Below are positions 9,799 through 54,582 of a stretch of DNA of 54,582 nt, one piece after another. Under the pieces are notes generated by a model, which saw only the letters and a program-made list of their open reading frames with translations, did not search any database and had not been told where the DNA came from. The translations under genes and the position numbers were made by a program. Origin of the DNA: an uncultured Archangium sp. (GTDB lineage: Bacteria; Myxococcota; Myxococcia; Myxococcales; Myxococcaceae); contig CAIVGN010000067.1 in the NCBI GenBank assembly GCA_903905455.1, positions 1-54,582 of the forward strand. Direction: 5' to 3'. Position 1 is the stretch's first letter; each line of letters starts with the position of its first letter.

Positions 9799-11802
9799 CT
9801 AGCTGTTTCGGGGGGCGGTGAGGGCGTCGAGCAGGGCCTGGCGCTCGGACTTCGAGAGCGGCCTCCCGCCGAAGCGGGCCTCGAGGTAGCGACGGCTGGC
9901 GCGGCGCACCGGCTCGGCCAGGCGGTGGTGTTCCCGGCGCAGGCGCTCGGGCAGCCGCTCGATGTCTTCGCCTTCGCGCAGGCGAACCTGGACCTGGTCC
10001 AGCCGGCGCTCGAGGGCCGTCAGGAAATCAGCGGCCGGGTGCCGCCGGGCCGAGGCGCCGGTCAGCCGTTGCCACACCACCCACACCGCGATTCCTGCCG
10101 CCAACGCCGCGAGGATCGCCCGCGTGGGCGTGCGCGTGCTGGGCTCTGGCCGCTCGTCGCGGTCCTCCTGCTGGCGGCTGGCGTTGGCCGGAGGGCGGAT
10201 CAGCTCGCGCACGAAGGTCCACTGATCGATGAGCGAATAGTCGACCACGCGGGAACGCCACAGCTCCTCGAGGCGCTCGTAGGCGTCGAGGATCTTCGCG
10301 ATCAGCACCTGAGGCCGGCTCCCGCGGCCGTCGTCGGGCGTCGCGTCGAAGGTCACCCAGCCGCGCGCAGGAGAATACGCCTCGACCCAGGCGTGGGCAT
10401 CGCCGGCGCGCACCACGTAGCGGTCGCTGACGCGCTCCCCGCCGAAGAAACCGCCCACCACCCGCGTGGGCACGCCCCGGGTGCGCAGCATCACCGCCAG
10501 GGCCGTGGCGAAGTGCTCGCAGTGCCCGGCCTTCCTCACGAAGAGGAAGTCGGCCAGCGGGTCTTCGACCTCGCCGGGCAGCTCGAGGGTGTACTCGAGG
10601 TTGTTGCGCAGCCATTGCTCGAGGCGCCGGGCGATCTGCTCGGGGTCGGTGGCGCTCCCGGCGAGCCGCGTCGCCAGCTCGCTCACCCGCGGGTCGATCT
10701 TCGGAGGCAGCCGCCGCAGGGCCTCGAGCACCTGCGGGTCGTCCTCGCGCATCGGGGCGTCGTCGCGGCTCTGCGCGGTGTAGGTGTACGCATTGCCGTC
10801 GTCGGCGATGCGCACCTCCTCGGAGCCCACCTTGATGAGGTTTGCGGGCATGGCGCCGCTGGTGGTCAGGGCCACGGCCGGGCCGAAGTAGACGGGGTGC
10901 TCGAGGCCGACGAGCGTGCGGCTCCCGTAGGCCGGCAGCAGCTCGATGCGCTGGATGATCGCGGCGCTGGGATCCCCGAGCATCACCCGCGGCTTGGGCT
11001 CTTCGGGCTGGCCGGTGCCTCGCCACTCGCGCCCGTCGAAGGTGTCGAAGTGCCGCCCCACCCAGTACTTCTCGAGCTTCTCGGCGGTGGGCCGGGGCTC
11101 GATCTTCGCGCGCAACACCACCCGGGCGCTGGTCTTGATGTCCCCGCCGCCGCCCAGCCGCACCCGGTCGGTCATGCCCGTGGTGCCGCCCAGCAGCCCC
11201 GGCCCGGTGCGCCGAGAGGCGAGGTTCCACGAGAGCCGGGGGAAGAGGATGAAGAAGCTGACCCCGCCGACGAGCGCCAGGGCCACGCCGATGCTCACCT
11301 GGCGCATCACCGGCGCCAGGGGGAGCTCCTCGTCGCGCTCGATGGGGCCCTCGACGACCGTCATGCCCAGCGACAGGCAGGCGAACACGCCGAACGACAA
11401 CAGGCACAGCGCGTACCAGATCTCGCCGGACAGGGCGGCGGCGCCGGTCATCAACAGCAGCGACGCGAGCAGCACCTGCTGGTCGGTCGACGGGGTGGGC
11501 TCCGAGAGCATGCGCTGGCCGGTCACCAGGGTGGCGAAGGCCACCGCGGCGACGACGAGGTCGAGCTGGCCGCGAAAGGCGAGCCCGAAGAGCAGCACCG
11601 CGAGGCCCAGCAGCACCACCACCGACCAGGCCGGGTGGCGCTCGAAGGGGCGCTGGCCCGCGAGGCTCAGGAACAGCGCCGCCCCGAAGACGATGCTCAC
11701 GTAGATCGGCAGGGCCCCCGACAGGGCCACCGCCGCGAACGAAGAAGCGGCCGCGAGATCGCGCAGGCGCAGGCGCAGCGTGCGTCGCTCGGCGAGGTTC
11801 AT
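9799..11802 (-). CDS. TgpA-like membrane transglutaminase
   Basis: 667 aa from the ATG at 11802, which overlaps the DUF58 stop (ATGA). The N-terminal ~200 residues hold several membrane helices (DUF3488-like). A periplasmic transglutaminase-like domain follows with GHCEHFATALAVMLRTRGVPTRVVGGF for the catalytic Cys region, GDAHAWVEAYSPARGWVTFDATP for the His/Asp, and a final DUF4129-like helical tail after one more membrane helix near VLAALAAGIAVWVVWQ. The MoxR-DUF58-transglutaminase order is a widespread conserved trio of envelope or protein-assembly function. Substrate unknown. Confidence 0.9.
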   Translation of the reverse strand: MNLAERRTLRLRLRDLAAASSFAAVALSGALPIYVSIVFGAALFLSLAGQRPFERHPAWSVVVLLGLAVLLFGLAFRGQLDLVVAAVAFATLVTGQRMLSEPTPSTDQQVLLASLLLMTGAAALSGEIWYALCLLSFGVFACLSLGMTVVEGPIERDEELPLAPVMRQVSIGVALALVGGVSFFILFPRLSWNLASRRTGPGLLGGTTGMTDRVRLGGGGDIKTSARVVLRAKIEPRPTAEKLEKYWVGRHFDTFDGREWRGTGQPEEPKPRVMLGDPSAAIIQRIELLPAYGSRTLVGLEHPVYFGPAVALTTSGAMPANLIKVGSEEVRIADDGNAYTYTAQSRDDAPMREDDPQVLEALRRLPPKIDPRVSELATRLAGSATDPEQIARRLEQWLRNNLEYTLELPGEVEDPLADFLFVRKAGHCEHFATALAVMLRTRGVPTRVVGGFFGGERVSDRYVVRAGDAHAWVEAYSPARGWVTFDATPDDGRGSRPQVLIAKILDAYERLEELWRSRVVDYSLIDQWTFVRELIRPPANASRQQEDRDERPEPSTRTPTRAILAALAAGIAVWVVWQRLTGASARRHPAADFLTALERRLDQVQVRLREGEDIERLPERLRREHHRLAEPVRRASRRYLEARFGGRPLSKSERQALLDALTAPRNS

Positions 11803-17226: not shown

Positions 17227-17699
17227 GCGCTGAAGACCCGCGCGACCCGAGGTTCCGCAACTACCGCCGCGTCACGCTGGCGGTGTACCTCGTCATCTCG
17301 TGTGGCTTTTCGGCGTTGATCATCGGCAGCGTCTACCAGTCGGTGCTGCAGATGACGCCCGAGTTGCCCGAGGCCGCCGGGCCCACCTCCAGCGAAGCCG
17401 AGTGCCTCGGCCAGGCGCGCGGGTTGTTCGAGGAGCTCGAGCTGCAGCGCAAGGGGCTCGTGGGCTCGGCCGACGTCACCCACGCCGACCAGCGGTTCCT
17501 CGACTTCCGGGTCGAGTGGTTGACCCGCAAGCGGGCCATCGAAGCGCGCTGCGGGCTCGAGTCGCGCGAGAAGGTGCGCGGGGTCTACCGGACGCTCGAG
17601 CGCCTGCTCGACCTGTACACCACGGCCTCGGTGCAGTTCACCGGCGGAGTGGGCCCGGTCACCGACGAACTCAAGCGTCAGCTCGAACTCAAGCCTTGA
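17223..17699 (+). CDS. Membrane-anchored hypothetical protein
   Basis: 158 aa, with an N-terminal basic stretch and one membrane helix (about 19-39, VYLVISCGFSALIIGSVYQ), then a helical extracytoplasmic region with two Cys (SSEAECLGQARG, EARCGLES). Overlap with the TPR gene suggests the two proteins work together at the membrane. No known family was recognised. It ends 4 bp from a convergent lipoprotein gene. Confidence 0.65.
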   Translation: MSAEDPRDPRFRNYRRVTLAVYLVISCGFSALIIGSVYQSVLQMTPELPEAAGPTSSEAECLGQARGLFEELELQRKGLVGSADVTHADQRFLDFRVEWLTRKRAIEARCGLESREKVRGVYRTLERLLDLYTTASVQFTGGVGPVTDELKRQLELKP

Positions 17700-17703
17700 G
17701 GCT

Positions 17704-19437
17704 TCAGCGCGACCCGCCGTCGAGGGTCGCCGAGGCGGTGGGCAACACCACCGAGTAGCGACCGCGATCATCGGAGATGGTCGAGCCGAGCAGGATGGAC
17801 GCCGGCTTCCCCTCGACCGTGGTGACGCGGAAGAAGCGCAGCTGCGAGTAGGGCACCGCCTGCGACACCTGCGTGCCCATCGTCCCCGTCACCAGGCCCG
17901 AGACCGCCCGCGCGGCCGAGAGCTGCACCAGGGGCAGATCGATGGTGGCGCCGGGCTGGCCCGATTGCGGGTCGAGCACGGCCTTGATGGTGACCAGGCG
18001 GCTGGCCAGCGGCAGCACCTCGGCGGGGAAGTACTCGAAGCGCCACTTGCCCGGGTCGAGCGGCATCTCGAAGGTGCCGTCGTCGGCGGTGATCGCCTCG
18101 GCGGGCTCCACGGGCAGGGCGCGAACGTCGCCGGTGTTGCCCTTCGTCTCCAGCTGCAGCGTCGCGCGCACCGTCACGCCCTGCGCCGGGCCGTCGCCGC
18201 CGGGGCGCTGGACCTGGCCGCGGGCCACGAGCCGATCTTCGAGGCTGAGGCGGTCGGGGCTGAGCGTCGCCGCTCCGTTGGCCACCTTGACCGTCACCGG
18301 CCGCTGCGAATAGGCGGCCCGGCTCCCGCGGGGGGGCACCACGGACAGCGTGAAGCTGCCCTCGGCCTTGCTGCCCAGCGAGAGCAGGCTGAACTCGCCG
18401 GCCGCGTTGGTCTCGACGATCTTCGAGCGGAAGGTGCCATCACCGGCCACCGTGCCTTCGAGCACCACCTGCGCACCGGCCACGGCCACGCCCTGGCTGT
18501 CGACGATGGTGCCGGTCGCCGTGGCCGCCGCGCCGTAGTCGCCGTACTCGAGCGAGAGGGCCGCCGGCAGTGGGGTGTCGATGAGGAAGCGCCGGGTGGG
18601 AATGGGCACGCCCGGCTCGCGGGGCGCGGCCACCAGCAGCAGCGACGTGCGGGTGCGGGCCTCGGGGCTGACGATCACCGCGAACTCGCCGGTGGTGCTG
18701 GCGATGGGGAAGCGCTGCGAGAGCGGCAGGTTGGTGGTGGGGTCGAAGAGCTGCAACTCGACCACCGGCACCTCGATGCCCGCCCTGGTGAAGGGTTCGC
18801 TGACCAGCAGCGGCTCGGGCGGCGCCAGGGTGGTGTCGAGCTTGCGGATCAGCTGGCCCGCGAGGGCCGGCGCGCCGTCGACCGAGGGGAAGGCGAAGGT
18901 GATCGAGGGAGTGCCGGTATCGGCGCCGACCTGGGCCATGGTGACCGCCGGGGGCACCACGCGATCGGCCGGGGTGGCGGTGATGGTGAAGTCACCTGCG
19001 CCCACCTTCATCTCGAAGAAGCCGCGCTCGGGGTGCTCGAAGCGGCCCTCGAAGCTGCGGGTGATGCCCGGCAGCAGCATGCTCTGCCCGACCGCGCGCA
19101 CCACCACGGCCTCGGTGTACGAGCTGCGCTCCAGCGGGCTCAGGGTCGAGACGGCGCGCAGGAACTGGCCGTTGAGCGAGAGGGCCTGGCCCAGTTCGAA
19201 GTTCTGGTTCGCCCCGAGGGTGCCGCTGGGGAGCGCGAAGTCGCGCGCGAACTGGCCGGTCAACGAGCCGCCCTCGACCTCCACCACGATGCCCTTGTTG
19301 GGGTCACCGCAGCCTTCGGCGAAGCACAGCTTGCCGTCGTCGCACTCGAGATCGCTGGAGCAGGCCGCCGACTGCGGTGCGCTCGTGCTGCCGCACCCGG
19401 CGAGCAATCCGATGAGGACCAGGGGGAGCGCCTTCAC
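17704..19437 (-). CDS. Lipoprotein with carboxypeptidase-regulatory-like domains
   Basis: 577 aa, GTG start. The lipobox is LLAGC within MKALPLVLIGLLAGCGS, and a short Cys-rich segment follows (CSSDLECDDGKLCFAEGCGD), common in myxobacterial surface lipoproteins. Repeated beta-sandwich units of CarboxypepD_reg type follow (GTIVDSQGVAVAGAQVVLEG, ARGQVQRPGGDGPAQGVTVRA). It is probably a surface or periplasmic binding or scaffold protein. Its start overlaps the stop of the upstream lipoprotein gene (GTGA), so the two are coupled. Confidence 0.75.
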   Translation of the reverse strand: MKALPLVLIGLLAGCGSTSAPQSAACSSDLECDDGKLCFAEGCGDPNKGIVVEVEGGSLTGQFARDFALPSGTLGANQNFELGQALSLNGQFLRAVSTLSPLERSSYTEAVVVRAVGQSMLLPGITRSFEGRFEHPERGFFEMKVGAGDFTITATPADRVVPPAVTMAQVGADTGTPSITFAFPSVDGAPALAGQLIRKLDTTLAPPEPLLVSEPFTRAGIEVPVVELQLFDPTTNLPLSQRFPIASTTGEFAVIVSPEARTRTSLLLVAAPREPGVPIPTRRFLIDTPLPAALSLEYGDYGAAATATGTIVDSQGVAVAGAQVVLEGTVAGDGTFRSKIVETNAAGEFSLLSLGSKAEGSFTLSVVPPRGSRAAYSQRPVTVKVANGAATLSPDRLSLEDRLVARGQVQRPGGDGPAQGVTVRATLQLETKGNTGDVRALPVEPAEAITADDGTFEMPLDPGKWRFEYFPAEVLPLASRLVTIKAVLDPQSGQPGATIDLPLVQLSAARAVSGLVTGTMGTQVSQAVPYSQLRFFRVTTVEGKPASILLGSTISDDRGRYSVVLPTASATLDGGSR

Positions 19438-41208: not shown

Positions 41209-41292
41209 GGCCCTCTGACGAAACTGGTAGACGTAGCGGACTCAAAATCCGCCGCCTTCACGGGCATCCCGGTTCGAGTCCGGGGAGGGCCA
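41209..41292 (+). tRNA. tRNA-Leu(CAA)
   Basis: 84 nt without an encoded CCA. The acceptor stem pairs GGCCCTC with GAGGGCC. The D-arm stem is ACG/CGT. The anticodon arm is GCGGA-CTCAAAA-TCCGC with anticodon CAA (reads UUG). A long variable arm as expected for tRNA-Leu follows, and the T-arm is CCCGG-TTCGAGT-CCGGG. Discriminator A at 41292. A T-run follows directly. It is the integration target of the island to its right. Confidence 0.93.
41258..41292. other. Candidate attL within the tRNA-Leu 3' end
   Basis: The 35 bp shared between the tRNA 3' half and the integrase 3' end are the expected core of the attachment site, because tyrosine recombinases typically use the T-arm and acceptor end of tRNAs. 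No second copy was found by eye to the right, so attR is probably beyond the window. Exact core boundaries are unknown. Confidence 0.6.
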
Positions 41293-42517
41293 CTGTTTTT
41301 GGGTAATGACTGCTGAGGGTTGCGGCGGCCGGTAGCAAAACGGTAGCAAATCCGCTCGCGGTGACCGCCGAAGTCCCCGGAATCACGACGATGGCCTCCC
41401 CGGTCTCCTGCTCGATTCTCAGCTTCAAGACCTCGCGGCAAACGACCTCCCACTCGTAGGTCGTGTAGCCCTCGATGACCTCTGTGGGCGGCTTGTGCGT
41501 GGCGCGCCGGAGGATGTCGGTCATCGCGCCCGCGGAGCGCGCGAGCGAGATGAAGGTCCTCCGCAGGTCGTGGCTGCGCCGGTGCCGGAGGCCCATCATC
41601 TTCAGGTCGTTTTCGAAGTGGTCGTAGACGTAGCCCTTGCGGCGCCACGGGCCGAACCTCGATGAAGTTCCCGGTACCCGAGGGACCACGAGGTCGTCGG
41701 GCGTCGGTTGCCGTCCCATCAACTGTGCCCAGCCGTGCAGCTTCCACTCGGCGAGCATGGTCGCGAGGGTGGGGTGGATGGGTACTGGGCGACAGACGTT
41801 GCCCTTCGGAAATGGGCGACCATACGAGAAGGCGACGAGGACCATGCCGAGTGGGGGGTGCTCGGGCTGCACGCCGCAGTTGCGCCAGAGGAGGCCCGAG
41901 ACCTCGCCCAGGCGGAGACCTGCAAGTGCTTCGAGCGCGTAGAAGACCCGTCGGTCCATCGGAATGCGGTCGTCGGAGATGAGCCTCCGAACTTCGGTGG
42001 TGGTGAACTGGGCCTTGGAGCGCCACTCAGGGTCCTTGTCGACCTTTGGCCCGAGTTGCCGTTTCTTGAGCATGCACGGGGTGCTGGTCAAGAGGTCGTC
42101 GAGGCAGGCGTCGCGAAAGAGCGCCGAGACGACGGAGTAGTCGCTGTAGATGGTTCGGGGGGCGAGCGTCCGCTTCCACTCGTTCACCATCGTGATGAGG
42201 TGGCGAGGGCGAACCTCGTCGAGCCGCATGTGTCCGATGGCCTTGAGGACGCGCAGGCGCAATGCCGACTCGTCGTTCTTCCACGTGATGACTTCACTGC
42301 GGCGCCGCTCCAGCCAGGTCTTCGCGAAGGCTGCGACCGTGACGGGACCACCAGGAACGATCTCGCCACCCGCGGTGCGGGTCCTCTCCATCTGCTCGAG
42401 CATCACGCCTGCTGCTCGTTCTTGGCCGACCTTGAAATCAGTCCTGAGGCCCTTCCACTTCTCCCCGATCTTGAGGCGGAAATAGAGGCGGCCGCCCTTT
42501 GCGTAGATGCTGCTCAT
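41258..42517 (-). CDS. Tyrosine recombinase (island integrase)
   Basis: 419 aa from the ATG at 42517 (GGAGAG ribosome site). Core-binding region about 60-150, catalytic domain about 170-370. Catalytic residues: Arg202 (LAGLRLGEV), His316 and Arg319 (SHDLRRTF), His341 (RRATHK) and Tyr351 or Tyr354 (GYTTYEW). The last ten residues (ALPGLEPGCP) are translated from the antisense of the tRNA-Leu 3' half, so integration restores or defines the integrase C-terminus. It converges on the tRNA. Overlaps the upstream HTH gene by 4 bp. Confidence 0.95.
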   Translation of the reverse strand: MSSIYAKGGRLYFRLKIGEKWKGLRTDFKVGQERAAGVMLEQMERTRTAGGEIVPGGPVTVAAFAKTWLERRRSEVITWKNDESALRLRVLKAIGHMRLDEVRPRHLITMVNEWKRTLAPRTIYSDYSVVSALFRDACLDDLLTSTPCMLKKRQLGPKVDKDPEWRSKAQFTTTEVRRLISDDRIPMDRRVFYALEALAGLRLGEVSGLLWRNCGVQPEHPPLGMVLVAFSYGRPFPKGNVCRPVPIHPTLATMLAEWKLHGWAQLMGRQPTPDDLVVPRVPGTSSRFGPWRRKGYVYDHFENDLKMMGLRHRRSHDLRRTFISLARSAGAMTDILRRATHKPPTEVIEGYTTYEWEVVCREVLKLRIEQETGEAIVVIPGTSAVTASGFATVLLPAAATLSSHYPKTVALPGLEPGCP

Positions 42518-42858
42518 TTGCTCTCCGATTTGTGCAGCCGGTTCATGAGGATGGTGAGGTGCTTCTTGGGATCGAGTTCGGGCTCTTGATTCGAGCTTGC
42601 GAGGAAGGCGTCGAGATCGACGTGGTGCACCAGGTACCGCCTGCCTGCGCGTCGAGCAGGCAGGTTCCCTGAGTGAATCCACGACCGGACCGTAGTGGTG
42701 GTCACCGAGCAGCGACTGGCCACGGCATCGACCGTGAGCAGGGGGGGTGGTTGCTCCGCACGTTCGCCACGAAGCGCAAGGAGCGCCTCGCGGAGTTCGC
42801 GGGTCTCCTCGCGGATGATGCGCCGCAGGTCCTCGTCAGTGGTGACGACGATGGTCAT
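42514..42858 (-). CDS. HTH DNA-binding protein, excisionase/AlpA-like
   Basis: 114 aa from the ATG at 42858. A MerR/Xis-type HTH_17 domain lies in the C-terminal half (LLTVDAVASRCSVTTTTVRSWIHSGNLPARRAGRRYLVHHVDLDAFL). The ATGA overlap with the integrase gene supports a role as recombination directionality factor for island excision, though transcriptional regulation is equally possible. Confidence 0.8.
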   Translation of the reverse strand: MTIVVTTDEDLRRIIREETRELREALLALRGERAEQPPPLLTVDAVASRCSVTTTTVRSWIHSGNLPARRAGRRYLVHHVDLDAFLASSNQEPELDPKKHLTILMNRLHKSESK

Positions 42859-43295
42859 GGCTGACCACCGAACGCGAGAAGGGTGAACAGCCGGTGCCCC
42901 GGCTGGGTGCTGCCAGTAACTGATTGCAAGACTCGACCTGCGCAGCCGGCACGGTGCGTCCATCAACACTGCCGCCGGTCGGGTCGATGTCAGCGAAGCG
43001 CTGACTCCACCGGCTATGAGGCTCGAGGGCACGTCGCTGCTTCCGACGGTGGCTCCCTCGTTCAACAGGTGCTGCGCCAACGACGTGGTGACCGAGGTCA
43101 CTCACGAATTGAGGTCGAAGGACCGGTGTGCCGCCGGAGATCTCCCGCCCGCTCTTGGCGGGCCCTCATCACTACCGGCGTTCAATCCCACGAGGGGAGA
43201 AGACCCGTCAACGAGCCAAATCGTCGCTACGCTTTACGCGTGCGAACCGCGTTTCCTGCGCTCGGTCGCCGCTCGCTTTACGAGCCCAACTATTT
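42859..43295. other. Non-coding region with palindrome
   Basis: 437 bp without a supportable gene between the excisionase-like gene and the next island gene. It holds a perfect 6-2-6 palindrome, GTGACCGAGGTCAC (43088-43101), a possible operator, and a CCCGCC/GGCGGG hairpin at 43144-43162. Both could control the downstream recombination genes. Neither has other support. Confidence 0.45.
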
Positions 43296-46951: not shown

Positions 46952-47755
46952 TCATCGCTCCGACTCGCACAGGGCCCGGTACGGGCAGCTCTTGCAGGCC
47001 CACCCGCGCACGGGGAAGGAGACCCCGGCGTCGATGGCCGTGAGCACGCCCAGCGCCGTCTTGAGGAAGTCCGACATGTCGCCGTCATCACGGCGGACGT
47101 CCTCGACCTGCACGGCCGGCACCTTCGTCTTCGTGGTGACCGAGAAACGCAGGCCGACCTCGCCCCACTTCAACTGCTCGGCGGCGAAGGCGTACCCAGA
47201 GAGCTGCGTGTCGAACACGAGCTGGTCGAGCGAGTACTTCTTGGCGCTCGTCTTGTGCTCGACCAGCACCCGGTGCCCCTCTTCCTCCAGCACGAGGTCG
47301 ATGACGCCCTTGAGCTTCTCGTCCAGCACCTCGCCCGACGTCGCGTCGTAGAGGTCCACGGTGAAGGGCACCTCGACGCCCAGCACCTTCGCTGGTTGCG
47401 CCGAGGGGTGCGTCAACGTGACGTCCAGCATCTGGAGCCCCTTCACCAGCGCGGCGTCGAAGCCCGTGCCGTCCTCGTCTTCCTGCAGGGGCACCGGGCC
47501 ATTCTTTGCCAGCGTCATCGCATCGACGAAGCGCTGCCTCACCTCATCGACGGGCGCCGGCTCGCCCCTCATCAGCCACTGGTAGTGGTGGGCCAGCGCC
47601 AGGTGGAACGCCGAACCGAAGGCCAGGGGCATCGGCACAAACGCCGGCTCCGCGCCGACGATGTACCGGTACTCGAACTTCTTCGGGCACATGAGCCACG
47701 CCTTCATCTGCGACACGCTGAAGTGCAGCGTGTCCTGCGCGACAGGGGCATTCAC
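46952..47755 (-). CDS. PD-(D/E)XK nuclease with Fe-S cluster motif
   Basis: 267 aa, GTG start overlapping the annealing-protein stop. RecB/Cas4/AddB-like exonuclease. N-terminal SVSQMKAWLMCPKKF (Cys23), active site GVID (Asp153), VEHK (Glu166, Lys168) and QLSGY (Gln184). The C-terminal C254-x2-C257-x5-C263 completes a four-Cys [4Fe-4S] layout typical of this group. It likely resects DNA ends for the adjacent annealing protein, as in RecE/RecT-type pairs. Confidence 0.9.
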   Translation of the reverse strand: MNAPVAQDTLHFSVSQMKAWLMCPKKFEYRYIVGAEPAFVPMPLAFGSAFHLALAHHYQWLMRGEPAPVDEVRQRFVDAMTLAKNGPVPLQEDEDGTGFDAALVKGLQMLDVTLTHPSAQPAKVLGVEVPFTVDLYDATSGEVLDEKLKGVIDLVLEEEGHRVLVEHKTSAKKYSLDQLVFDTQLSGYAFAAEQLKWGEVGLRFSVTTKTKVPAVQVEDVRRDDGDMSDFLKTALGVLTAIDAGVSFPVRGWACKSCPYRALCESER

Positions 47756-48552
47756 GACGCGAGGCTTTCGCTCGGCGAATCAGCGTGGAGCTGGGCGTCG
47801 AGGCTCTTGATGACCTGGCTCGCCTGCTCACGCGAGATGAACTCCACCTGTGCGCCGAACTGCGTCTTGACCCGCGAGCGCAGCGCCGACGGCTCGACCC
47901 CCAGCTTCCTGGAAATCGACATGATGGCCGCGAGCTGCTTCGAGCTGAGGCGGTTCCGCTCCGGCGGAGAGGGGCGGGTGTCGACGGCCGGCCCGGTGCG
48001 CACGTAACCGGGGGGCGTCTGCTGGGGCTGCGTCGCCGGCGGCTTCGGCGCCGACTGCACGGGCGCGGACTTCGGCGGCGCCGTGGCGAACGACGGGTCG
48101 ATCGGTTCGTTGTCTTCGTCGATCACTCCGGCGAACGCCTGCCAACCGCAGTTGAACATCGCGGCAGCCTTTTTTAGCCCGTTACTCGTCGCACCCTTGC
48201 GGGAATCGGCCTCAGACGAGTAGCTGATGTGCCCACCGTCGGCGACGGCCTCCGCGTAGGCCACGGCCGTGCCGTCCACCCACTCGACCAACTCGAGGAC
48301 GACGTCGGCGACACAACTCCAGCCCTTGCGGCCCGACTGAGTCGTGATCTCCGTGCAGGTGACTTCGCGGTGCAGGCGCCAACCCCCGAGCCCGCACACG
48401 GCGTTCAGCCTCATGATCACGTACATCACTTTGACGCCGGTCGTGTTGTAGCCGCGGCCTGTGGCGCGAGCCTCGGTCCTTTCGATCGCCTCCTCGGGAA
48501 AGGCGGCGCTGAGGTCCTGCAGCATCTGCTTCAACTTCGCTTCGTTGGGCAT
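47752..48552 (-). CDS. Rad52/Sak-like single-strand annealing protein
   Basis: 266 aa. The N-terminal ~140 residues resemble Rad52/Rad22-type annealing proteins (VKVMYVIMRLNAVCGLGGWRLHREV; EADSRKGATSNGLKKAAAMFNCG). A Pro-rich linker (about 155-195) leads to a C-terminal helical module (LSSKQLAAIMSISRKLGVEPSALRSRV), a frequent tail in phage Sak/Erf proteins. It probably promotes island or phage-like recombination together with the coupled nuclease. Ribosome site AAGGAG. Confidence 0.8.
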   Translation of the reverse strand: MPNEAKLKQMLQDLSAAFPEEAIERTEARATGRGYNTTGVKVMYVIMRLNAVCGLGGWRLHREVTCTEITTQSGRKGWSCVADVVLELVEWVDGTAVAYAEAVADGGHISYSSEADSRKGATSNGLKKAAAMFNCGWQAFAGVIDEDNEPIDPSFATAPPKSAPVQSAPKPPATQPQQTPPGYVRTGPAVDTRPSPPERNRLSSKQLAAIMSISRKLGVEPSALRSRVKTQFGAQVEFISREQASQVIKSLDAQLHADSPSESLAS

Positions 48553-48759: not shown

Positions 48760-50022
48760 CTAGATGGTGAAGAGCGCCTCGGCCGCGGTGTCGTCCACCG
48801 TGTCGAGACGCGTGATGGCGTGGGCGTCGTCGCACCAGGGCTTCAGCGACTCCGCTGATACGCCGATGCCCACGCCCAGAAGCGTTACGCGGAGTTGCGC
48901 TGCGAACTGCCTGATGACGGGAGCGTCCTGCGTCTCGCTCTCTCCGTCGGTGATGAGCACCACGTCGGCGGCCTTCATACCCCCGGTGCTCGTCTGGATG
49001 ATGGACATCGCCCGGGACAGCGCGCCGGTGATGTTGGTGCCGCCGCTGCATGCGGTGAACAGCGTCTCCTCGGGGAGCTGCCCGCCCACTTCGACGATGT
49101 CCTGCCGCTTCACGTCGCCGTCGAAGGCCACCAGCGCAAACGGCCTTCGCTGCCGCTGCGCTACGTCGAGCAGCGCCAGCGCCACCGCAGTCGCCCAGAT
49201 GTCGCTCGTGCCTTCCATGCTGCCCGACTTGTCGATGCACACGATGAGACTGCCTCGCCCCAGGCTGTCGGTGCCGGAGAGCCGGTACTGCATGACCTTG
49301 CCCTCGGTGAGGCGGGCCAAGAAGGCGCGTCTCATCAACGGGTGGCCGAGCTGCGCCAACTCGGAGGGGAGGACCCTCGACAGGTTCGACCCGAGCTCGA
49401 CGTCGCTCACTTCGTCGGCGCCGTGGCGCACCTTCGCCTTCTGCTTCGCGGCGGCGATGCGCTTGAACTTCCCCGCGAGAAGCGCGATGCGGGAGAGCCG
49501 CTCGTCCCGCTTGAGGCGCTGGCTGAGCCGACGGGCCTGGGCGCCCGAGGTCTTCGTGTGCTGCCCCGCGCCCGAGCCGAAGCCCACGCCCGCGAGACCG
49601 TCCATCGTCTCGCGCTGCTGGTCCACGGCTTCCGACGCCTTGTCGCAGGCGCGGTTGAGGGCACGGCGGAGCTGGGGCGGCTGCACCTCGTCCGACTTCT
49701 GCTTGAGGTGCGGCCCGAGGGCCTCCATGAGCTTCTCGGTCGCCGTGCCTGCGGCGTCGGCGTCCCCGAGGCACTCGTGCGCGAGCCTGTTGAAGTTCGG
49801 CAGCTCGGCGGTGATGCCGTGGAGCTTCTCGGCCCAGGAGGTCAGCTCGGCCGAGGTGTCCGGCTTCACCGCCTTCTCCGACTCGCCCGAGTACAGCTTG
49901 TCGAAGAGCTCATCCTCGAGCTTCCTCACCGGCGTATCGTCCTTGTCGACGGTGGGCAGCTCACGCGCGTCCCGGTGGAGGTACACGTGCCACCGGGGAA
50001 CGTCGTTCACGAGGCGCAACAC
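48760..50022 (-). CDS. viaA: ViaA-like VWA protein
   Basis: 420 aa from the GTG at 50022, preceded by GGGGAG and 2 bp after the ravA-like stop. The N-terminal half is helical. The segment SRVLPSELAQLGHPLMRRAFLARL followed by KVMQYRL resembles the region before the VWA domain of E. coli ViaA. The VWA MIDAS is D264-x-S266-x-S268 (DKSGSM), with GGTNITGAL and LITDGES supplying the other ligands. ViaA works with RavA, in E. coli linked to respiratory complexes and aminoglycoside sensitivity. Its presence on an island is unusual. Confidence 0.82.
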   Translation of the reverse strand: MLRLVNDVPRWHVYLHRDARELPTVDKDDTPVRKLEDELFDKLYSGESEKAVKPDTSAELTSWAEKLHGITAELPNFNRLAHECLGDADAAGTATEKLMEALGPHLKQKSDEVQPPQLRRALNRACDKASEAVDQQRETMDGLAGVGFGSGAGQHTKTSGAQARRLSQRLKRDERLSRIALLAGKFKRIAAAKQKAKVRHGADEVSDVELGSNLSRVLPSELAQLGHPLMRRAFLARLTEGKVMQYRLSGTDSLGRGSLIVCIDKSGSMEGTSDIWATAVALALLDVAQRQRRPFALVAFDGDVKRQDIVEVGGQLPEETLFTACSGGTNITGALSRAMSIIQTSTGGMKAADVVLITDGESETQDAPVIRQFAAQLRVTLLGVGIGVSAESLKPWCDDAHAITRLDTVDDTAAEALFTI

Positions 50023-50024
50023 GG

Positions 50025-51164
50025 TCAGCTCCCCGTGCGGCGCAGGCCCAGCCCGGTCGAGACGGTCCGGGCCAGGTCCTCGTGGAGGCTTCGGATGTCG
50101 GCCAGGGACGCCTCGATGGTGGCCTTCGCCCGTCGGCCGGCGGACTTCTCCAACTTCTCGAGCTTGGTGACCTGCTGCTGGTACTGGTCTAGCCCCTGGG
50201 CGCAAGCGGCGATGTACATCTTGCGGTCCCCGCTCTTTTGCCCCGCGATCTTCAGGGCGATCTCGTTGGCCGCGTCCATCACCTCCGCCGCCTGAACTGA
50301 CGCCGGGTCAGCGAGCTGGCCCACCAGCTTGGCCACCTTCGCTCGCTCCTTCGGTTCTCGCCAGAGCGCGTCCACCAGCAGGGTGAGGTCCTCGGGGGTG
50401 GTCTGCTTCTCGCCCGCCATCCAGGCCGTCGCCTGCACCAGTCGCAGCGACTTCTTCCAGCGGCGGTCGCTGGCGATGATGCCCTCGGCCTTCAGGGCGT
50501 CGCGCACCGCGATGAGGGCGTCCACCGTGGCGTCGGTGAGCTTCACCTTCTGGACCTCCGCCTGCGCCGCGCGAAGGGTCTTCATGTCGAGGACGTTGGT
50601 GAGCTTGGGCTCCGACGCCACCAGCACGTCCTTCAGGTTCTGCGGCCGGAGCAGGTAGTCGACCTGGAAGCGCAGCGCGAAGCGGTCGAACAGCGCCTCG
50701 AGCTCCTTGCCCTCGGGCAGCTCGTTGCTGGCGCCGAACATGGCCACGAGGGGCACCGGCAGGGGCGCGCCACCGTTGCTGTAGGTCCGCTCGTTGATGA
50801 GCGTGAGCATCGAGTTGAGGATGGCGCTGTTGGCCTTGAACACCTCGTCGACGAACGCGAACTCGGCGGTGGGCAGCATGCCGGTGGTGACGCGGGTGAA
50901 CTTGTCCTGCTCGAGCCCCTTCAGGCTGACCGGCCCGAACAGCTCCTCGGGGGTGCTGAACTTCGTGAGCAGACGCTCGAAGTACGAGCCGCCGAACGCC
51001 TGGGCGAGGGCGCGCACCAAGGCCGACTTGGCGGTGCCCGGCGGGCCGACGAGCAGGACGTGCTCTCCGGCGAGAACAGCAGCGAGCGAGCCGTCGATGA
51101 CGCTGGCTCGCTCGGGGAAACGGGACATGAGCTCCGCCCTGAGGGCGGCGAAGGTCTTCTGCAT
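50025..51164 (-). CDS. ravA: RavA-like MoxR AAA+ ATPase
   Basis: 379 aa from the ATG at 51164 (AAGGAG upstream). Walker A GPPGTAKS (40-47), KFSTPEELFGPVSLKGL, Walker B FAFVDE (102-107), LNSMLTLINER, sensor-1 GASNELPEG and the SDRRWKKSLRLVQATAWMAG segment match E. coli RavA closely. It is shorter than the ~498-aa E. coli protein: the C-terminal ~100 residues are a coiled coil instead of the known triple-helical and LARA domains. It heads a minus-strand run with viaA and the recombination genes. Confidence 0.88.
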   Translation of the reverse strand: MQKTFAALRAELMSRFPERASVIDGSLAAVLAGEHVLLVGPPGTAKSALVRALAQAFGGSYFERLLTKFSTPEELFGPVSLKGLEQDKFTRVTTGMLPTAEFAFVDEVFKANSAILNSMLTLINERTYSNGGAPLPVPLVAMFGASNELPEGKELEALFDRFALRFQVDYLLRPQNLKDVLVASEPKLTNVLDMKTLRAAQAEVQKVKLTDATVDALIAVRDALKAEGIIASDRRWKKSLRLVQATAWMAGEKQTTPEDLTLLVDALWREPKERAKVAKLVGQLADPASVQAAEVMDAANEIALKIAGQKSGDRKMYIAACAQGLDQYQQQVTKLEKLEKSAGRRAKATIEASLADIRSLHEDLARTVSTGLGLRRTGS

Positions 51165-51219
51165 GGTGGTGCTCCTTGGTGGTGAGGGCGCAGCCGGGCC
51201 TCTGCGACGGGCCGCTTGC

Positions 51220-51237
51220 GGCGGTGGTGGTGGGGTT
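51220..51237 (-). promoter_or_regulatory. C-rich leader motif copy 2
   Basis: Minus-strand AACCCCACCACCACCGCC lies about 55 bp before the ravA-like start. Related to the copies at 45641, 52864 and 53669. Confidence 0.4.
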
Positions 51238-51365
51238 GTGGGCCGGTGCACCGGCCCGCGGGCCACGAGCAGCGGACCGGCGGACCAGCGTTGCGCCGGC
51301 TCCGAGGTGTCTATTTACGAGGGGTTACGGCCGATGGAGGGCGTCTGTGGGCCGGTTGGTCCGGT

Positions 51366-51474
51366 TGGTCCACTTCCCAGGAGGAGGGTAGGGCTCACGT
51401 AGAGGAATGTTCTCTCTCTGCCTTGGCGTGAACGCGGCGGCCTACACGAGGGGTCTCCTCCTGGGAGTGGACCA
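51366..51474. repeat. Inverted repeat, 20-21 nt arms
   Basis: Arms TGGTCCACTTCCCAGGAGGA (51366-51385, continuing one base) and its reverse complement at 51455-51474 differ by one inserted T. The 68-nt interval between them has no gene. Weaker similarity extends outward through the TGGTCC units. Confidence 0.75.
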
Positions 51475-51688
51475 GGTGGCCCAATCGGACCAGCGGCCCC
51501 CTTCTTCTTCTTCAATCTTCAATAAAATTAGTTAGTTAGTGGTAGTTGAGGGCGAGGCGCTGGTCCGGTGAGGTCTCGGATTGGTCCGCTTCGCCACCGA
51601 ATTGGGCCGCTGCTCAGGCGATTTGGTCCGGTCGCCGGCGTCGGCGGGTCGGCCTTGGTCCCCCCCCCTCGGCCCGCCGCAAAGATCC

Positions 51689-51943
51689 GGCGAGCCCTGG
51701 TTCGTCGCTGAAGACCTATGCGCGGCGCTCGGCCTCACCTCGGTGACCGGGGCCGTTGGTCCCATCCCTGGCGAAGAGAAGGGGGTCCATCCGATGGATA
51801 CCCCTGTTTGAAATCAGAAGGTTACGGCGCTCGCCGAGGAAGGCATGTGGCGCCTCGTCATGCGCTCCGACAAGCCCAAGGCGCTCGAGCTGCAGCATGC
51901 AGCAGGCGCCAAGGGTAGGTGCCAGACACCGACCCTTTCATGA
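51689..51943 (+). pseudogene. BRO-N domain pseudogene
   Basis: The in-frame translation starts with GEPWFVAEDLCAALGL, hits TGA at 51809-51811, then resumes in the same frame with QKVTALAEEGMWRLVMRSDK. These are the two conserved blocks of the BRO-N/Ant domain of phage and viral DNA-binding proteins, separated by one stop codon with local erosion where an intact copy would have a Gly-rich link. No BRO-like sequence is seen before GEPWF, and the region after MRSDKPKA is degenerate. It is a remnant of a phage-type gene. Confidence 0.8.
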
Positions 51944-51953
51944 CGGCGGGCGC

Positions 51954-52835
51954 TTACGCCGCATGCTTCGCGTTGAGCAGCGACTCGATGGACGACGCCA
52001 GCTGGTCGAGCGAGGTGTCCAGGTCCTTCACCTGGACACTCAAGACGGAGCGATACAACTCGGCCCGTCCGCGCAGCGCGTCGAAGGCGTCAAAGCGCCG
52101 CACCAGGGTGCTGGTGCGCTCCGGCGGTGAGGCGAGGAACGACTCCACCTCGGCCTTGAGCTCCGCCAGGTCGGTCTCCAGGCTCTTCGTAGCGGCATCC
52201 CCGAGGGTGCGGCTGGCGTCGGGGCCGTCGTGCACCGGCAGCAGGTACAGCTTGCTGTGGCCGATGCCCTCGATGCACCCCTGCAACCGGCGCAGCTTCT
52301 CCGCGTTGGGCGCGGGCACGTACCAGATGGCGCCCGAGTCGCGCAGGAGCACCGCCGAGAAGCTCTGCAGCGTCTTGGTGATGGTGCGCCTGATGTCGTC
52401 GGCGGTGTGCGTGTCCTTGAGCGCCGTGAAGCGCGTCTGGACGGCCGTCACCAGGTCGTGGGTGGGGGCGTCGGTGTTGATGGCGCCGGTCAACAAGTCG
52501 AGGCCAACGCGTGCCTCCTGCGTATAGACCAGCGTGCCGTCGGCATGACGGGCCTCGTGCACGATGGCGAACACCACGCTCGCCTCGTCATCCACGGCGA
52601 CGCGGATGAGCCTGTCGGTGAGCCCGGTCTGCGTCTCGCGCACCGCCAACTTGAAGCTCTTGATGACGGTGGGGGGCTCCGGCAGCAGCTCCATCGGCAG
52701 CTGCGCGGCCTTCCACTTCGACTCAAGGTCGCTACGGCTGGTGCTGGCCTCCGCGAGCATCCAGAAGACGATGTCGCCAAGGTGAGCGCCGCCCTTGGCC
52801 AGGACGGCGGTGAGGTTCTGCATCGTTGCATTCAC
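51954..52835 (-). CDS. DUF6744-like hypothetical protein
   Basis: 293 aa from a GTG at 52835, chosen because AAAGG precedes it and its leader matches that of the 153-aa gene. An ATG at 52823 is the alternative. The order of segments (PPTVIKSFKLAVRET, RLIRVAVDDEASVVFAIVHE, a middle helical part, then SGAIWYVPAPNAEKLRRLQGCIEGIG) resembles a phage and actinobacterial family I know as DUF6744. The match is from memory. Function unknown. Confidence 0.65.
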   Translation of the reverse strand: MNATMQNLTAVLAKGGAHLGDIVFWMLAEASTSRSDLESKWKAAQLPMELLPEPPTVIKSFKLAVRETQTGLTDRLIRVAVDDEASVVFAIVHEARHADGTLVYTQEARVGLDLLTGAINTDAPTHDLVTAVQTRFTALKDTHTADDIRRTITKTLQSFSAVLLRDSGAIWYVPAPNAEKLRRLQGCIEGIGHSKLYLLPVHDGPDASRTLGDAATKSLETDLAELKAEVESFLASPPERTSTLVRRFDAFDALRGRAELYRSVLSVQVKDLDTSLDQLASSIESLLNAKHAA

Positions 52836-54268: not shown

Positions 54269-54582
54269 GGCCGGTCTTCCGCGGGCCGGTCCAACAGATC
54301 GCCAAGGTGCGGCGCTGGCGGCTTCAGGTTCTCCTCAACAGGCGCAGCCGTCGATGATGGTGGCAGGTACGCCGCCAGGTTCCCCGCCAAGAACAGGGCA
54401 CCACGCCCTGAAGGCCTACCGCGCCCGGAAGGGCTCTTGGCTGTCACCACCGAGGTGACCGAGATCCACTTTCACCGAGATCACCGGAGACCCGGGTCCG
54501 TCGGTCGAGTGATCGCTGTCGTGTCGGCTGGCTCCGCCGGAGCGAGCGCAGCGAGCGAAGGCGCCCTGTCATCGGCACGCAA
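54269..54582. other. Non-coding edge region with repeats
   Basis: No gene supported. Near 54443-54485 there is an inverted repeat (GTCACC/GGTGAC around ACCGA) followed by two CCGAGATC-x-CAC-like units (TGACCGAGATCCACTT and TCACCGAGATCACCGG). Such terminal repeats occur at ends of some insertion sequences. Whether one begins here cannot be seen from the window. Confidence 0.35.

Follow-up and report, generated by a model that had tools for sequence, protein, structure and literature searches.

A phased, two-stranded array of TGGNCC sites beside an AT-rich patch in an integrated myxobacterial island: a tentative origin-like reading

We analysed a stretch of 54,582 nucleotides, referred to below as the window, which is one entire contig of an 8.6-Mb genome of an uncultured Archangium sp. 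The region of interest (51165-51953) is intergenic and lies between the gene of a RavA/MoxR-like AAA ATPase (bpMoxR; 50025-51164, minus strand), which is its downstream neighbour in the sense of the operon, and a DUF6744 gene (51954-52829, minus strand), which is its upstream neighbour. The conserved core of the island continues on the same strand with genes for a VWA (ViaA-like) protein (48760-50205), Rad52 (47752-48552) and a PD-(D/E)XK nuclease (46952-47755). The island boundary is marked by a tRNA-Leu(caa) gene (41209-41293, plus strand), a tyrosine integrase gene (41258-42682, minus strand) and an HTH_17 excisionase-like ORF (42514-43101, minus strand), and recognised genes are carried by the minus strand from this integrase/HTH_17 end to about 53.6 kb. 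Because an integrase is found at a tRNA gene together with a phage-type recombination module, the setting is that of a mobile element; the array region sits inside an integrated mobile island.

The ATPase and the VWA protein resemble RavA and ViaA, respectively, with scores below the NCBI cut-offs, and the ATPase matches bpMoxR above the cut-off. Of 145 genomes of the order, 21 gave a match to the VWA protein. DUF6744 adjoins MoxR and VWA in 17 of 20 fetched regions, eight of which also carry Rad52 and the nuclease; of the other three, region L044 begins within VWA, and no match to DUF6744 was seen in L045 or L046. L044 is a second, partial copy of the island on another contig (C242) of the same genome, with genes for an integrase and a tmRNA beside it. 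It should be noted that type I restriction-modification genes lie near the core in three genomes (L027, 14161-19831; L028, 13328-16974; L029, 1278-4423), which suggests defence cargo. Queried by the single MoxR protein, viral contigs gave no match, and 52 loci came up when a MoxR alignment was used; a weak DUF6744 relative occurs in one phage record, and MoxR relatives of below 60% identity in 160 plasmid records. In the literature searched, DUF6744 is named nowhere, and there is no paper on myxobacterial integrative islands with Rad52 and MoxR.

The intergenic region holds 10 of the 23 copies of TGGTCC in the window, on both strands (51282 to 51762), and all six copies of TTGGTCC. With the relaxed word TGGNCC there are 15 sites between 51239 and 51757, a count from which duplicate readings of self-overlapping words (at 51367, 51468 and 51477) are omitted. 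Three outlying sites stand on the left (51239-51287), TGGGCC at 51239 on the plus strand and TGGCCC at 51260 and TGGTCC at 51282 on the minus strand, spaced by 21 and 22 bp, and a perfect palindrome with 9-bp arms (GGGCCGGTG/CACCGGCCC, 51240-51257) overlaps the first of them. They are followed by a triplet of plus-strand sites with a 9-bp period (51348, 51357 and 51366; 51348-51371), which includes the tandem GGTTGGTCC at 51354-51371, and by a mirror-image triplet on the minus strand (51469, 51478 and 51487; 51469-51492). The two triplets and their flanks form an inverted repeat with 20-nt arms (left, 51366-51386, plus strand; right, 51455-51474, minus strand) that lie 68 nt apart and are perfect except for a single bulged T. 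To the right is a direct array on the plus strand (51560-51661), with sites at 51561, 51582, 51603 and 51624, exactly 21 bp apart, and a fifth at 51656. Its spacers differ among units, and thus it is not a simple tandem repeat. A further TGGTCC is at 51757. Between the minus-strand triplet and the direct array lies an AT-rich patch (51501-51547) with three TTAG units (51528-51539), a candidate unwinding element; its 75% A+T over 40 bases is the maximum of the window, in which no 40-mer elsewhere exceeds 57.5%. The tandem, the spaced TGGTCC units, the inverted repeat, the TTAG tandems and the AT-rich patch in a GC-rich setting had all been named in an earlier sequence-only reading of this DNA, and all of them are present. 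That reading placed the feature at 51165-51688; the array is real, and its TGGNCC sites run past that end. It also missed the phased 21-bp arrangement of the right half and a broken gene immediately to the right.

Across the window TGGTCC is not in excess (23 copies observed versus 32 expected), and it is the clustering that stands out. The array is the best hexamer cluster of the window, with a log10 P of -12.3 versus -8.4 for the best of 20 order-2 Markov sequences, and also the best heptamer cluster (-11.2 versus -6.9 in 20 such sequences). With nine random sites, a run of four neighbouring sites on one strand in exact arithmetic progression arose in a fraction of 0.0001 of simulations, and a looser simulation with 14 sites yielded a progression of four in 0.005. 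The array is real and non-random. Since comparably strong clusters of short words (log10 P of -11 or lower) were found in 5 of 29 other fetched regions (L029, L032, L251, L046 and L037, the last being a long tandem repeat), short-word arrays are not rare in such DNA.

The cluster could have been left by a decayed repetitive protein, in which the words would be Gly-Pro codons (GGNCCN). Ten consecutive sites are in the same codon frame (with a P of 0.0002 if single sites are placed at random, a value inflated by the tandem groups), and the shared frames read Gly-Pro every three or seven residues. Moreover, when TGGTCC density was determined in the viral-contig loci that two pattern scans had yielded (at least 148), the four densest were, by eye, collagen-like coding repeats. 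However, all six frames of the region contain stop codons, the sites are inverted relative to one another, and six ORFs that we tried had no Pfam match except for the Bro-N domain described below. The G+C content by codon phase is flat in the region (0.62/0.73/0.66), compared to 0.94/0.43/0.67 in the adjoining moxR gene, so that the signal of coding DNA is absent. A coding relic is therefore very unlikely in our estimation.

The sequence-only reading had offered a replication origin, a transcription factor array or an RNA structure. The first two fit the anatomy, given the phased sites, the AT-rich outlier between groups of sites and the non-coding profile of codon phases; the third draws on the inverted repeat only, as a hairpin in a transcript. 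The folding z-scores of -5.6 (plus strand) and -4.3 (minus strand) agree with such a hairpin, but any inverted repeat of this kind would fold well on both strands. Rfam gave no match in the window at the gathering score, no terminator-like site was found, and no conserved homologue that could show covariation was found in the 145 genomes. We consider a functional RNA highly improbable, the faintest of the explanations weighed here.

The sequence-only reading also held that a lack of conservation of the repeats in related islands would refute it. The repeat sequence is indeed not conserved, and one related island (L029) has an array of a different word in the same place. Searched as DNA against 145 genomes of the order, the region gave short partial matches only. 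A pattern of three units at 21 bp was found in four of these genomes; here a single array accounts for two matches that overlap, and in the other three genomes the matches are, by eye, clean tandem repeats. Reversed-pattern controls matched in five genomes. For an array with variable spacers, there was no second case in the own genome or in the 145 genomes. A dispersed repeat of the REP or MITE type is ruled out by searches of the own genome, in which the 791-base region had one match at an E-value of 0.001 and the paired-site pattern had eight matches versus 13 for its reversed control.

In relatives, the gap between DUF6744 and MoxR measures 78 bp (L027), 45 bp (L028) and 88 bp (L031), and in several other islands 0.5-1.5 kb; some of these longer gaps seem, by eye, to hold unrelated small genes. 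The gap is a spot that receives insertions. Neither of the two closest islands (L027 and L028) shows a comparable cluster, whether in the 20 kb retrieved for each of them or in additional stretches of their contigs. Because these two islands have neither room for the array nor a comparable cluster, the array is not a core origin of the island family.

The DNA to the right of the array is a decayed Bro-N domain of a phage anti-repressor gene (51686-51910, plus strand; 75 codons), truncated and interrupted by one in-frame TGA; the TGGTCC at 51757 is inside it. It came to light through the best of the short matches in the DNA search of relatives, which turned out to be coding. The domain is read in the frame of 51662 on the plus strand, and its C-terminal part is absent. 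A genome search with PF02498 gave the remnant 42.6 bits versus the curated cut-off of 25.6, and with an X in place of the stop codon it scored 44 bits; either half alone is below the cut-off, and the halves match different parts of PF02498. PHROG anti-repressor families match it at 2.5e-16. It is the sole Bro-N match in the genome at an E-value of 1e-6 or lower, and its closest Bro-N relatives in the order are less than 50% identical. The other eight Bro-N places have open frames of 269-350 amino acids, while the frame of the remnant is broken; the Bro-N gene beside the array is dead. We infer that the array and the remnant arrived as one accessory, phage-derived insertion. Since the anti-repressor of this insertion is now broken, the array itself may be a relic.

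The position of the sites raises the possibility that they are operators only, bound by an island repressor or activator that controls either the minus-strand moxR operon or the plus-strand former bro gene, without a role in replication. The sites stand between two genes, directly 5' of the Bro-N remnant; all six TTGGTCC copies face the remnant or lie inside it in the sense direction, and Bro-N proteins are classed as phage transcription regulators. In addition, L029 has seven copies of TGACGCA (10893-11172) directly upstream of the orthologous moxR, in the same gap as the window array. Nevertheless, when 35 entries (33 distinct places, as L101 and L102 duplicate L032 and L030, with nine viral-contig loci, L177-L185, included) were examined over 1.6 kb on the upstream side of moxR, a comparable cluster turned up in only two, so that a conserved upstream element of moxR is ruled out; no sigma-70-like promoter was found in the region either. 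A typical Bro-N promoter region is likewise unsupported. When 17 other Bro-N loci (orientation unconfirmed for three of them) were examined over the preceding 1 kb, no hexamer cluster equalled the array (best value -6.2 versus -9.0), although one locus (L242) is about equal at the heptamer level (-8.0 versus -8.1). A pure operator function is possible, and we give it appreciable weight while doubting it.

Given the array of L029, the position and style of arrays may recur among the islands while their sequence does not. Locus L032 has an array of GAGTGGAT (17476-17720), with a triplet spaced by 11 bp and an inverted pair, between a gene for an excisionase-like protein (phrog_66) and tRNA-Cys; these may be Int/Xis sites. 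On the same contig, which belongs to another genome of the order, locus L251 (4807-5165) has seven copies of CTGTGTCAG on both strands, which flank the AT-richest 40-mer of that stretch and adjoin a small protein that weakly matches the C-terminus of a phage helicase. This layout is clearly origin-like and is the same as that of the window array. No AT-rich outlier coincides with the arrays of L029, L032 or L030. In related genomes, 18-bp palindromes (TTGAACCacgtGGTTCAA and TTGGACCacgtGGTCCAA) occur in pairs separated by about 290 bp (L036, 14355-14656; L042, 13172-13466), and the word ACGCGTC is very dense at L046 (11160-11418; 13 copies, log10 P of -21).

Sites for control of excision and integration would be another explanation of the window array itself. 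The array of L032, beside both a tRNA gene and an excisionase-like protein, points in this direction, as does the HTH_17 excisionase-like protein of the window island, which belongs to the same PHROG as the L032 protein. Each of four related Bro-N loci is likewise preceded, at about 900 bases, by three AGTGAAC sites, close to a gene that by eye resembles a recombinase gene. On the other hand, the integrase and tRNA genes, with the attachment site there, lie over 8 kb away from the window array, there is no TGGTCC cluster near 41.3 kb, and a second att copy was not found on the contig. The other end of the island is beyond the contig, and the array might conceivably lie near a site at that end. 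We therefore regard an Int/Xis-type function as unlikely.

Our preferred reading is that of an element-specific iteron or operator array with origin-like anatomy, carried by the integrated mobile island. We advance it tentatively and with somewhat less than even confidence; it is preferred to the pure operator because of the AT-rich outlier and the phasing of the sites. Two properties of iteron origins are seen at the locus, namely direct repeats at a helix-phased spacing (21 bp three times, then 32 bp) and, beside them, an AT-rich stretch. Of the ORFs scanned between 41.2 and 53.6 kb of the contig, which ends at 54582, none was recognised as coding for a replication initiator, a primase or a helicase, and no DnaA-box-like site (TTWTNCACA with at most one mismatch) occurs between 29274 and 52979.

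According to the origin-like reading, the approximately 15 putative binding sites, with the core YTGG(T/G)CCG, would be recognised by a DNA-binding protein of the island. An initiator or regulator would occupy sites lying along one helical face, and the resulting nucleoprotein structure would bend the DNA and open the AT-rich stretch. The opening would, in turn, start replication of the island, which is the outcome that we prefer, or transcription of the flanking genes. The array would have come in together with the Bro-N anti-repressor, in one phage-derived insertion. The region is probably of a type already known for control regions, met here in a new setting. A broader proposal is that islands of the DUF6744-MoxR-VWA-Rad52-nuclease type carry iteron origins that are specific to each element and change fast, each built on a distinct word of 7-9 bp (TTGGTCCG, TGACGCA, GAGTGGAT, CTGTGTCAG), and that the RavA/ViaA-like pair and Rad52 aid the start of replication; we regard this as a long shot. 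If the array works, it offers a handle on the control or copying of little-studied myxobacterial islands whose shared, conserved core has no known purpose. Should the array be a relic instead, it is an unremarkable trace of phage-derived DNA at an insertion-prone spot between two core genes.

Iteron-type plasmid origins are described as having two to seven iterons of 17-22 bp (PMC4980987). The window array is similar to the origins of RK2, F, P1, R6K and pPS10 in that short direct sites about two helical turns apart stand beside an AT-rich stretch. Unlike those origins, however, it is conserved over only some 8 bp per 21-bp unit and also has inverted triplets, with no Rep gene and no DnaA box seen. 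In SaPI origins, short iterons flank an AT-rich region on both sides. In the PLE of Vibrio cholerae, repeat 3 is bound by RepA and is required for replication (PMC7145576). The window array shares with these satellite origins, which are bound at their repeats, a mobile island and repeats in non-coding DNA; no RepA_N or SaPI-type Rep was recognised in the window island, and the resemblance seen here is one of layout. The remnant at 51686-51910 matches both the Bro-N domain (PF02498) and the PHROG anti-repressor Ant, but it differs from other Bro-N genes in being broken and truncated, and the upstream DNA of its relatives has no comparable array of the TGGTCC word. Finally, the ATPase and VWA proteins of the island are like those of MoxR-VWA (RavA-ViaA-like) modules, with the difference that here they are joined to DUF6744, Rad52 and a PD-(D/E)XK nuclease in integrated islands.
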